Positions 31,443 through 37,400 of a DNA stretch of 64,000 nucleotides are shown one piece after another (the first letter of the stretch is position 1; the number at the start of each line of letters is the position of its first letter). Both the position numbers and the translations under genes were made by a program. The notes under the pieces were generated by a model that ran no database searches, was not told the DNA's origin, and worked only from the letters and a program-made list of their open reading frames with translations. This DNA is from Candidatus Sumerlaea chitinivorans. Lineage in GTDB: Bacteria; Sumerlaeota; Sumerlaeia; Sumerlaeales; Sumerlaeaceae. Location: assembly GCA_003290465.1 (NCBI GenBank), contig CP030759.1, positions 2,802,572 through 2,866,571 on the forward strand. Reading direction: 5' to 3'.

Positions 31443-34400
31443 GAGAATGCTCACGCGCCCGCGCGGGGCGCGACTACAGGTAGTAGACTTGTGGTGCTAC
31501 CGTCCACTTGTTTCAATCCACGCGCCCGCGCGGGGCGCGACGCTGCTCCGGCGCGCGGGGACTCCTACCACCGATGTTTCAATCCACGCGCCCGCGCGGG
31601 GCGCGACGCCCCGATGGTATCATTCTATCCGGCCTGCCCGCCCGGTTTCAATCCACGCGCCCGCGCGGGGCGCGACGCATACGCGCACGCGTTATAGTTT
31701 TCTTGTTTTGTTTCAATCCACGCGCCCGCGCGGGGCGCGACTCGCCGTGATAGTGGGCAAAAATGCGCCACTCTGTTTCAATCCACGCGCCCGCGCGGGG
31801 CGCGACCCGCCGGGATGAAAGAATAATCATCCCGATAGTGGGCAGTTTCAATCCACGCGCCCGCGCGGGGCGCGACATGGAATTTCGGTACGAATCGCCG
31901 GGGCTTTGCGGGTTTCAATCCACGCGCCCGCGCGGGGCGCGACGCCGCGCGGCAAATACGCCGACGGGCAGCGGGGGGTTTCAATCCACGCGCCCGCGCG
32001 GGGCGCGACCCAAGCAACATGCAGGGTGGGCACGGGCTCCCAACGTTTCAATCCACGCGCCCGCGCGGGGCGCGACGCGCCGGGGGGGCGGCAGGATCTC
32101 CGCCCAAATGTGTTTCAATCCACGCGCCCGCGCGGGGCGCGACTGCGCCCTGATATTGGCGGTCGCGTAGGTAGACGCGTTTCAATCCACGCGCCCGCGC
32201 GGGGCGCGACGGTCCGCCCGCATACCCCGGGTCCCGGGTACCGGTTTCAATCCACGCGCCCGCGCGGGGCGCGACAAGCCACGTGCAGGGTGGGCACGGG
32301 CTCCCAGTGTTTCAATCCACGCGCCCGCGCGGGGCGCGACTCCGTGGCCGGAGCGCTGGCGACGTGTTTTTAAAATGTTTCAATCCACGCGCCCGCGCGG
32401 GGCGCGACAAGCGATGGCTGCGGCATCTGCAAGTTCTTCCCGCGGTTTCAATCCACGCGCCCGCGCGGGGCGCGACCAAGTGGTGGACCTGTGGTGTTAT
32501 CGGCCGCTGGTTTCAATCCACGCGCCCGCGCGGGGCGCGACCTGTGAACGCAAAGCCAAGGCTGTAGAGGCCACTTTGTTTCAATCCACGCGCCCGCGCG
32601 GGGCGCGACTATGGCTCAAGAAGCTCTCGCGCGGGGATGAAGGTTTCAATCCACGCGCCCGCGCGGGGCGCGACCAATTGCGCAGTAGCAATGATTGTGC
32701 CAATCGCGCGTTTCAATCCACGCGCCCGCGCGGGGCGCGACACCACACGCCATCCCAGGAAAACACCAAGTAGCGGTTTCAATCCACGCGCCCGCGCGGG
32801 GCGCGACAACCGCAACGACTGCGCATCGATATTCGCCACATCGTTTCAATCCACGCGCCCGCGCGGGGCGCGACAACCCGCTCCTGTAAATTGTCCGCCA
32901 CTCTGTCGAGTTTCAATCCACGCGCCCGCGCGGGGCGCGACACACTGGGAACCGGCGAATACGGCTTATAATCAGTTTCAATCCACGCGCCCGCGCGGGG
33001 CGCGACGCAATGAAATACGTGGCCATGTCCGATTGCGCTTGCGTTTCAATCCACGCGCCCGCGCGGGGCGCGACCAGCCGCAACAGATCTTCTCGAGCCG
33101 ACCTACCATGTTTCAATCCACGCGCCCGCGCGGGGCGCGACCCACGCCGTCGTACGATACTCCCACAACACCTCGGTGTTTCAATCCACGCGCCCGCGCG
33201 GGGCGCGACCGGAATCATCTGACCAGCCAGACGGAATATTAGCCTCGTTTCAATCCACGCGCCCGCGCGGGGCGCGACATCTGCCCATCCATCCGCCAGC
33301 TGTTCGACTACCTGTTTCAATCCACGCGCCCGCGCGGGGCGCGACTAAGTCTTGCCGGATCTTGGTGGACCGACCCAGAGCGTTTCAATCCACGCGCCCG
33401 CGCGGGGCGCGACCCCAGCAGATTGAAGCCTCATCGATGACGACAAGGTTTCAATCCACGCGCCCGCGCGGGGCGCGACGCCCCCAAGGGCGAGGACTGC
33501 GCGTGCGGTTAAGACGTTTCAATCCACGCGCCCGCGCGGGGCGCGACGACGCAGCTCCACCACCCTTTCAACTACACCTTCCGTTTCAATCCACGCGCCC
33601 GCGCGGGGCGCGACCCCCTTCCGCGCACACCGCCCCTTCCCCTAAGGGTTTCAATCCACGCGCCCGCGCGGGGCGCGACTCAACCTCCCGACGAATCCGG
33701 CGCAGATGATACCGTTTCAATCCACGCGCCCGCGCGGGGCGCGACGAAACAACCTTACTCCAAACAACTTGACCTTCCCCGTTTCAATCCACGCGCCCGC
33801 GCGGGGCGCGACAATACCACATACGCCTCGCCAGCAGCAGCATCCGTTTCAATCCACGCGCCCGCGCGGGGCGCGACTAGGCGGGGTTGTTTATTGCCAG
33901 GATGCACAGGTTTCAATCCACGCGCCCGCGCGGGGCGCGACTGCGTCCCCGCCTCTCCCAGTTGTGCCCATCCCAGTTTCAATCCACGCGCCCGCGCGGG
34001 GCGCGACGGTGAGACTACACCTACACAGCCGGGAGACGGTGGTTTCAATCCACGCGCCCGCGCGGGGCGCGACCTGGGCGAGTGCCTCGGTTAGCGTTGT
34101 GCCGTAATGGGTTTCAATCCACGCGCCCGCGCGGGGCGCGACGAGGTCCCCTATGAGGAAGCGTTCGGAGTAGTCCCCGTTTCAATCCACGCGCCCGCGC
34201 GGGGCGCGACGGTTGGATGGTGTTGTTGAGAAGGTTGTTGAGCTGTTTCAATCCACGCGCCCGCGCGGGGCGCGACGGGAGTATCGCACGAGTGCGTGGG
34301 ATGCGTTCTTGTTTCAATCCACGCGCCCGCGCGGGGCGCGACACTCTGGAGTGACAATTCGTGTCACTCCCTGCTTGTTTCAATCCACGCGCCCGCGCGG

Positions 34401-37400
34401 GGCGCGACGCGTGCGATTCTTCGCGGCAGAGGTTGCGGCAGGGGTTTCAATCCACGCGCCCGCGCGGGGCGCGACCATTCCGCGTAGGTAAGGTGCGGAG
34501 CGTCGGCGTTTCAATCCACGCGCCCGCGCGGGGCGCGACAATTTGATATATTAATTTTAAAAAGAATTATCATGTTTCAATCCACGCGCCCGCGCGGGGC
34601 GCGACCACCATTTATGTACTCCGTTACTACAAATTACATCGTTTCAATCCACGCGCCCGCGCGGGGCGCGACATTCCGGCGATGTTCCATTCGGCGAAAG
34701 AGGTCGCCGTTTCAATCCACGCGCCCGCGCGGGGCGCGACAAGTTTCGCACTTGAAGACAACAAATTGGGCTGTGTTTCAATCCACGCGCCCGCGCGGGG
34801 CGCGACATGATAACAGCACTCTTAGTGAGCGTAACATGAGTTTCAATCCACGCGCCCGCGCGGGGCGCGACTGACCCGACAAATGCGGATCGCAACCGAG
34901 ACACATCGTTTCAATCCACGCGCCCGCGCGGGGCGCGACCACACTGGGAACCTCCGAATACGGCTTGTAATCGAGTTTCAATCCACGCGCCCGCGCGGGG
35001 CGCGACTGGCTCGACGCCCGCCACGGTCATCCCCATCTTCTAAGTTTCAATCCACGCGCCCGCGCGGGGCGCGACCGGACGGCCTGCGGTGGATTCGTCT
35101 ACGGCCCGCCCCGTTTCAATCCACGCGCCCGCGCGGGGCGCGACAGAATACGGTGGACGGAGTGCATATATATAGATGTTTCAATCCACGCGCCCGCGCG
35201 GGGCGCGACGGGTTTCTTTTTGCCTACCCCTCACGACCCACGCGTTTCAATCCACGCGCCCGCGCGGGGCGCGACCGGCGAATCTCCTCGCTTGAGGCGC
35301 TGCCGCTGACGTTTCAATCCACGCGCCCGCGCGGGGCGCGACGCAACCACAACGCGTCGATAACATGATAACATGAGTTTCAATCCACGCGCCCGCGCGG
35401 GGCGCGACCACACACCACCTCAACACGATCGTAGCGCCAGCGTTTCAATCCACGCGCCCGCGCGGGGCGCGACCCGAAAACGAGAAATATCCAGCTGTTG
35501 CACCTCATGTTTCAATCCACGCGCCCGCGCGGGGCGCGACGCGCAGCCGGCGAGCATCTGCGCGTCGCATCGTAGGTTTCAATCCACGCGCCCGCGCGGG
35601 GCGCGACTAGCGGGCCGCCAATATTCCACAAAAAAATTTCAAGTTTCAATCCACGCGCCCGCGCGGGGCGCGACTTTTCTCCTTTCGTCCCGTTCCGCAT
35701 TCTGACAAGTTTCAATCCACGCGCCCGCGCGGGGCGCGACCTCCTTTCCTTTTTCCGGCATTCCACCGCTTTCCTAGTTTCAATCCACGCGCCCGCGCGG
35801 GGCGCGACTTTCGCAACCACAACGCAGTGATAACTTGCTAACAAGCGTTTCAATCCACGCGCCCGCGCGGGGCGCGACCTTAGCATGGTAACGGGGGGCG
35901 CGAAAATTTTTCCCGGTTTCAATCCACGCGCCCGCGCGGGGCGCGACGAATTGTGCATGGACGCAGCGGAGTACATAGCCGTTTCAATCCACGCGCCCGC
36001 GCGGGGCGCGACACGCCCTGCCCTTGTCAGTGATCATATACCACCTCCGTTTCAATCCACGCGCCCGCGCGGGGCGCGACGGTGCCCACAGATATACAGA
36101 TCTGCATCACGGCGTTTCAATCCACGCGCCCGCGCGGGGCGCGACCGGTGGTGCGACGACGGGAGCCTATACAGGTGGCTCGCAGTTTCAATCCACGCGC
36201 CCGCGCGGGGCGCGACGCGCAACAGTCGATGACATAAGTAGCAATAAAAAGTTTCAATCCACGCGCCCGCGCGGGGCGCGACATGACCTACCGTTGCCAG
36301 ATAACCGCGCACATCAGTTTCAATCCACGCGCCCGCGCGGGGCGCGACCTCAGGCTCCGGAAATTGCGGTGCACCAGGAACCCCCGGTTTCAATCCACGC
36401 GCCCGCGCGGGGCGCGACCTTATACTCGCCTCGTCAATGACCACAAGAACAGGCGTTTCAATCCACGCGCCCGCGCGGGGCGCGACGAGGCCGCTGCTAT
36501 CATTGGCGCGGTCTATGCGCCGTTTCAATCCACGCGCCCGCGCGGGGCGCGACTGCACACCCCTCGCGCGGCAACCTCGACACGAAGGTTTCAATCCACG
36601 CGCCCGCGCGGGGCGCGACACTGCCGTCGATACGACTGGATATCGCGGGCCAGTTTCAATCCACGCGCCCGCGCGGGGCGCGACCGTGACGAAGTAGTCA
36701 CCCGCTCTGGTCCACCCGTTTCAATCCACGCGCCCGCGCGGGGCGCGACGGGACTATTTCGTCACGTTTACAGGACTTGCCGCGTTTCAATCCACGCGCC
36801 CGCGCGGGGCGCGACACCCCTTCCGCGCAAACGCCCCTTCCCCTACGGGTTTCAATCCACGCGCCCGCGCGGGGCGCGACGGCTAAGACGAGAAACCAAA
36901 CATTTCCCCGAGGGTTTCAATCCACGCGCCCGCGCGGGGCGCGACTATCTCGCGGTTGCGACAGGCGTTTGTGGGGTCAGTTTCAATCCACGCGCCCGCG
37001 CGGGGCGCGACGGCAGGTCTGCCGGTTTGGCGTTGTTGTCGAACGTTTCAATCCACGCGCCCGCGCGGGGCGCGACGGGTAAGATCACCACTGAGATCAT
37101 CCCTATTCAAGTTTCAATCCACGCGCCCGCGCGGGGCGCGACCGTCGTTATGACGTTATGGGACATGATACACACAGTTTCAATCCACGCGCCCGCGCGG
37201 GGCGCGACGACAGCAAGCTCGAGCTCATTGGGTCTTACGTCGTTTCAATCCACGCGCCCGCGCGGGGCGCGACCAGATGCGCCGGGCGCCTGGGTGCACG
37301 GCTTCGCCGTTTCAATCCACGCGCCCGCGCGGGGCGCGACCATATTGGTATTTTGCAGTTACCTATATAGGAGGTTTCAATCCACGCGCCCGCGCGGGGC

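Follow-up and report, generated by a model that had tools for sequence, protein, structure and literature searches.

Type I-C CRISPR spacers of a Sumerlaeota bacterium point to repeated capture of homologous sites from related, diverged elements

Held et al. (2010) found 41 spacer pairs in Sulfolobus islandicus that had been acquired independently; most are offset, and some differ by single-nucleotide polymorphisms (SNPs) (PMC2946923). In Legionella pneumophila, Rao et al. (2016) showed that type I-C, I-F and II-B CRISPR (clustered regularly interspaced short palindromic repeats) arrays target LME-1, and proposed priming (PMC5071653). Here, we analysed a 64,000-nucleotide stretch (the window; C1:2802572-2866571, C1 being contig CP030759.1) of Candidatus Sumerlaea chitinivorans, in which a type I-C array carries pairs of spacers that spell the same peptide with different codons. 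The principle is thus already reported in Sulfolobus and Legionella; the present case is richer, comes from another phylum and shows deeper synonymous divergence. As in Sulfolobus, offsets, unequal lengths and SNPs are read as a sign that spacers were acquired independently from one common pool of viruses, and the virus itself is not needed for this (PMC2946923). However, the Sulfolobus pairs lie nearly all between divergent strains and carry at most 4 SNPs, whereas the present pairs lie within a single genome, diverge by up to about 30% in nucleotides while their peptides stay the same, and were tested for codon periodicity. The likeness to Legionella lies in the I-C subtype, in the same or overlapping spacers entering one array through re-invasion by relatives, and in several CRISPR types bearing on one element (PMC5071653). 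There, the target is known (the 30-kb LME-1), priming has been shown and two overlapping pairs fall on LME-1; here, in contrast, the target was not found in the searched collections, and there are about 20 homologous sets. What is new here is that a type II-C array recaptured the same sites, that related spacers lie close together in array order, and that their order is similar in two I-C arrays.

The 3.29-Mb chromosome holds three type I-C arrays (A, B and C; 188 spacers together) and one type II-C array. The repeat of array A is 32 nt long (GTTTCAATCCACGCGCCCGCGCGGGGCGCGAC, as given on the plus strand), and its 103 full repeats are all identical; only the outermost left repeat, at the old end, is degenerate, and the spacer behind it is included in the count of 103. 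Since a common 3' flank follows all three I-C arrays, we read it as the leader; accordingly, the CRISPR RNA (crRNA) runs along the window's minus strand, and the array is oldest at its left end. A UMP kinase gene adjoins array A; its product is closest (68%) to that of a candidate division BRC1 bacterium, which makes a Sumerlaeota host most likely.

31443 to 38327, minus strand: type I-C array A, 103 spacers (A000-A102) of 32-39 nt
38328 to 38470, minus strand: leader side, TGGGTGCTTCTAACCCCAGTATTATCA..., conserved behind the final repeat of each I-C array; transcription and new-spacer end
C1:2788377-2793815: type I-C array B, 81 spacers, same repeat as array A
C1:2666429-2666727: type I-C array C, 4 spacers, same repeat as array A

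A sequence-only reading of the window had claimed that several spacer pairs differ mostly at third codon positions, and had named five. All ten spacers are present in array A at the positions given.

31475 to 31509, minus strand: spacer A000, pair 1 with A015; QVVDLWCYRPL on the plus strand
32477 to 32509, minus strand: spacer A015, pair 1 with A000
32010 to 32044, minus strand: spacer A008, pair 2 with A012; WEPVPTLHVAW on the minus strand
32276 to 32308, minus strand: spacer A012, pair 2 with A008
32942 to 32974, minus strand: spacer A022, pair 3 with A052; peptide on the minus strand
34940 to 34974, minus strand: spacer A052, pair 3 with A022; DYKPYSEVPSV
33414 to 33447, minus strand: spacer A029, set 4 with A074 and B013 of array B
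36419 to 36454, minus strand: spacer A074, set 4 with A029 and B013
35343 to 35376, minus strand: spacer A058, pair 5 with A065; coding reading doubtful
35809 to 35846, minus strand: spacer A065, pair 5 with A058

For each pair, we compared the residue changes with those in 1000 random mutants. The same-peptide claim holds for two pairs, with 9 silent differences each: A000/A015, in which 0 of 11 residues are changed (QVVDLWCYRPL), and A029/A074, in which 0 of 9 are changed (LVVIDEASI); none of the 1000 random mutants was as good in either case. Moreover, the IDEASI site is also hit by B013 (VCIDEASIYWDSR), from the opposite strand, with 11 differences and 2 residue changes. A008/A012 indeed encode an identical peptide (WEPVPTLHVA) on the minus strand, as claimed; this pair is weaker alone (P=0.036), since its overlap holds only 4 nucleotide differences, of which 2 lie within codons. 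A022/A052, read as DYKPYS(P/E)VPSV, are certainly homologous, given a 32-nt match with 3 mismatches, and the coding signal of their 4 differences (DYKPYS(P/E)VPS) is not significant alone (P=0.30). For A058/A065, the homology of the DNA stands (a 31-nt match), but the claimed related peptides are unsupported, as the changes are mostly non-synonymous in every frame (P=0.77). The spacer at 34807-34839 of the window, A058, A065, B027 and the II-C spacer D024 share motifs resembling TCATGTTA / TGATAACATGA, as if repeated captures had fallen on a conserved start-codon or operator region in the target.

We then compared all spacer pairs on both strands, with shuffles as the null. Among the 188 I-C spacers, 26 matches scored at least 12 (1.7 expected) and 17 scored at least 14 (0 expected), while at the peptide level 10 pairs scored at least 40, against 0.3 by chance. 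The mismatches show a period-3 concentration, falling into one codon-position class in 42 of 54 cases (null 30.5±2.2; 0 of 20000 shuffles as extreme). The observation is confirmed, and the five named sets are among about 20 homologous sets in the arrays. Near-threshold matches (A008/B067, A012/B067, A001/B005, A029/B044, B045/D014 and A058/D024) were left uncounted; the codon-class, array-clustering and order tests used a fixed score threshold, so that such matches enter them where applicable.

Many of the further homologous sets overlap on opposite strands or with an offset, or tile along a site. Beyond those in array A listed below, opposite-strand overlaps were found for B060/B063 and for B066/C004 (DDGIFV).

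33142 to 33177, minus strand: spacer A025, opposite-strand overlap with A042; WEYRT(S/T)AWDAF
34277 to 34310, minus strand: spacer A042, opposite-strand overlap with A025
33548 to 33582, minus strand: spacer A031, opposite-strand overlap with A041; EGVVERVVELR, joint peptide GVVE(K/R)VVE
34211 to 34244, minus strand: spacer A041, opposite-strand overlap with A031
34872 to 34907, minus strand: spacer A051, opposite-strand overlap with A082; DVSRLRSAFVGS, joint peptide SRLR(S/Q)AFVGS
36946 to 36979, minus strand: spacer A082, opposite-strand overlap with A051
36685 to 36717, minus strand: spacer A078, next to A079, overlapping it on the other strand; DYFVTFTGLA, joint peptide GDYFVTFTGLA
36750 to 36783, minus strand: spacer A079, overlaps A078 on the other strand
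31608 to 31644, minus strand: spacer A002, opposite-strand overlap with B007/B005; VSFYP..PRAS(S/N)IG; reveals TTC upstream of B007
32409 to 32444, minus strand: spacer A014, tiles with B002 (I-C) and D057 (II-C): REELADAAAIAFETVEPVQVH

Spacers in the same orientation tell how they were cut. Nine pairs (seven sites) have identical crRNA-5' ends, and their 3' ends are mostly 1-4 nt apart; this is what cutting anchored at a protospacer-adjacent motif (PAM) yields, unlike copying inside the array. Spacers overlapping on opposite strands with at most 1 mismatch gave, upstream on the crRNA-5' side, the triplets TTC, TTG, TTC and TTG. These four reads come from spacer-spacer overlaps rather than protospacers, and they agree with the TTC-type PAM that had been predicted and with the TTC and TTN on record for type I-C (PMC8482600). 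Array C adjoins a full type I-C operon, cas3-cas5c-cas8c-cas7c-cas4-cas1c-cas2, in which the cas8c/Csd1 model matches at L058:5949-7928 (E=1.8e-119), Cas5c, Cas7c and Cas3c models also match, and Cas4c, Cas1c and Cas2c are the best models for the adaptation module (L058:2977-5002). Effector genes, adaptation module and TTC-type PAM place the system in type I-C (Dvulg), as do the cas gene order and the repeat end GTGGATTGAAAC in the crRNA sense; it differs in having three arrays, of which two lie over 100 kb away from the cas genes, and an adjoining II-C system.

Overall, synonymous divergence, PAM-side anchoring, opposite-strand and offset overlaps, matches across arrays and across CRISPR types, and identical full repeats support the repeated independent acquisition proposed in the sequence-only reading. 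No other reading fits all of these findings together, and we consider repeated, separate capture from related, diverged elements very probable.

Several observations weigh against it. Some pairs are too similar to reveal coding constraint singly, and A093/B067/B070, A032/A080 and A056/B068 appear non-coding. PAM reads from the more diverged pairs are not TTC, which is possible if the sites differ; these reads are uninformative. In addition, searches of IMG/VR, phage records, plasmids, GTDB genomes and 60 relatives yielded neither a protospacer nor a protein carrying both peptides. The first of the non-coding sets includes one further spacer of array A.

37673 to 37705, minus strand: spacer A093, near-identical to B067 and B070 of array B; same PAM-side end

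A093 and B070 are identical across 33 nt. The three spacers are GC-rich (CTTAGCCGCGCCGCGCAGCCCCTGCCCCCC...), and B067 has one extra C, so that their source looks like a conserved non-coding element; the element was not found in the host genome outside the arrays, and its exact 22-mer has no match in IMG/VR.

The following course of events would account for these data. A bacterium of the Sumerlaeota (BRC1) has very probably been infected again and again by a few related, diverged mobile elements, most likely phages, and at each infection the type I-C Cas1-Cas2-Cas4 proteins would have cut spacers beside TTC-type PAMs. With few usable PAM sites in the shared genes, the same homologous site would be resampled from diverged relatives on either strand, and a new spacer would be useful where the old one mismatched the new virus, mainly at wobble positions. 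We infer, rather than observe, that the targets are phages, that one protein underlies each pair and that immunity is the benefit. The locus offers a natural test case of whether wobble-level divergence suffices to force re-vaccination at one site. Moreover, comparing spacers with one another, without a virus sequence, can show which frame is coding, which viral peptides are conserved, what the PAM is and in what order infections came, which is useful for hosts without known viruses, such as Sumerlaeota.

The II-C system, which lies beside the I-C operon, took spacers at some of the same sites.

L058:11617-15703, divergent beside the I-C operon: type II-C-like system with Cas9 and Cas1
C1:2680083-2684008: II-C array, 36-nt repeat, about 57 spacers
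32610 to 32642, minus strand: spacer A017, 17 exact nt in common with II-C spacer D055 (FIPAREL)
35276 to 35310, minus strand: spacer A057, homologous to II-C spacer D014 (VSGSASSEEI / VDGSASGEEI)

Between the I-C and II-C spacers, 5 matches scored at least 12 (1 expected) and 2 scored at least 16 (0 in five shuffles). It was the nucleotide scores that separated these matches from chance; tblastx-style scores alone did not. Three were taken as solid, namely D055/A017, D014/A057 and D057/B002, in the last of which the II-C spacer continues the I-C spacer. Position within the arrays carries a signal of its own: related spacers lie at most 5 positions apart in 7 of 15 pairs (P=0.0004; 5 of 5 in array B), and the order of homologous spacers is similar between array A and array B (rho 0.63-0.84, P about 0.02). 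This pattern fits bouts of infection by related viruses, logged in parallel. That two mutually unrelated adaptation machineries, I-C and II-C, within a single Sumerlaeota cell kept parallel records of one lineage of unknown viruses over time is a reading we put forward tentatively, at a little below even chances. From recapture arithmetic, nine same-PAM recaptures among 17,578 pairs give about 1,950 PAM sites, or ~60 kb when one TTC per 64 bases per strand is assumed, and three recaptures among 10,716 cross-system pairs give about 125 kb; both are orders of magnitude only, since diverged pairs escape detection. On this arithmetic, a special hot spot is unnecessary. If the parallel record is real, the arrays would be a time-ordered archive from which one could read conserved stretches of protein and, roughly, the genome size (an effective pool of about 60-125 kb) for a group of viruses never yet sequenced.

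Primed adaptation would be another explanation of the pairs: an old, mismatched spacer would have steered uptake from a diverged virus, the homologous site included. Related spacers do cluster in array order, as priming would also produce, and in Legionella type I-C, where priming is strong, Rao et al. propose it as an origin of overlapping spacer pairs (PMC5071653). However, repeated infection by contemporaneous relatives accounts for the clustering equally well, and on this point the data leave both readings level. By our own estimate, the split among same-PAM, same-strand-offset and opposite-strand cases resembles random sampling of PAM sites, and the same sites turn up again in the II-C array, with its separate adaptation genes. 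We regard a role of priming as possible but rather unlikely.

What the elements encoded was sought in public collections. Degenerate codon patterns for QVVDLWCYRPL, WEPVPTLHVA, AAIAFETVEP, DYKPYS and one further 10-residue peptide gave 0 matches in IMG/VR. Scans with composite peptides gave 11 pattern matches in IMG/VR and 28 in GTDB, with 0 confirmed in either. Phage records gave no match, whether in blastn with 61 of the 188 I-C spacers as queries or in tblastn with composite peptides, and neither did plasmids (tblastn alone). Pfam and PHROG scans of the spacer peptides likewise gave none; in one of these scans, the first query had a few filler residues between its motifs, so that its row is uninformative, the others being informative. 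The 60 relatives returned only the arrays themselves and two weak, unconvincing matches in one genome. Thus, of the claim that each pair hits a shared target protein, the spacer homology holds; no public protein or virus with both members was found, so that the step to the same protein, and to which target proteins are conserved, is inferred.

LVVIDEASI is plausible as a Walker B motif, as the sequence-only reading had it, and B013 together with the Walker-A-like spacer A028 strengthens this; IDEASI followed by WDSR, with a separate GPPRSGKT spacer, suggests that the target encodes a P-loop ATPase. These peptides may come from the Zot/pI morphogenesis protein of filamentous phages. SR after Walker B is often seen in Zot. 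On that view, the IDEASI peptides and others would derive from one filamentous phage with an inovirus-type Zot/pI ATPase, and a single inovirus lineage would be the main target. The (Y/C)WDSR-ended peptide does resemble Walker B plus SR, and the Walker-A-like peptide sits in a separate spacer. Nevertheless, no Zot was found in the host's own genome or family, the peptides have no Pfam or PHROG match, and none of the 11 VVIDEA(S/T/W)I matches in IMG/VR is Zot-like, as they fall in tape-measure or structural stretches or lie out of frame. The effective target pool also appears larger than one inovirus, and a single inovirus lineage as the main target seems doubtful to us.

The pairs might also have arisen as repeat-spacer units duplicated inside the array and then mutated. 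Some related spacers do lie close together (A078/A079, B046/B047 and B005/B007), and the identity of A093 and B070 would suit copying. However, the offset and opposite-strand overlaps cannot be duplicates at all, length differences are confined to the PAM-distal end, matches run between arrays and between I-C and II-C, and the most diverged pairs differ only synonymously; the uniform full repeats of array A also speak against this origin. Duplication, which the sequence-only reading had named as a result that would refute it, is rejected, and we consider it highly improbable. A gene family repeated in the host or its integrated elements might likewise supply wobble-diverged copies, but nothing found speaks for it, array A and B spacers having no host-genome match outside the arrays (a search covering those two arrays) and the conserved peptides none in the host outside the arrays or in its family, and we give it scarcely any weight.

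Further observations concern the arrays and their surroundings. Spacer A043 (window 34343-34376) forms an inverted repeat in itself, GGAGTGACA...TGTCACTCC, and may derive from an operator or terminator in the target. After the 45th repeat of the II-C array (about C1:2683000-2683250), there is a 161-bp interval without a recognisable mid repeat, either a degenerate repeat or an insertion. A truncated cas1c fragment between the I-C cas3 and cas9, L058:10996-11256 (C1:2675103-2675255), is possibly a relic of an earlier adaptation module. Elsewhere in the window, at 45242-48925, three adjoining genes carry thioredoxin-like domains, two of them fused to other domains (AMPK1_CBM and golvesin C-terminal).

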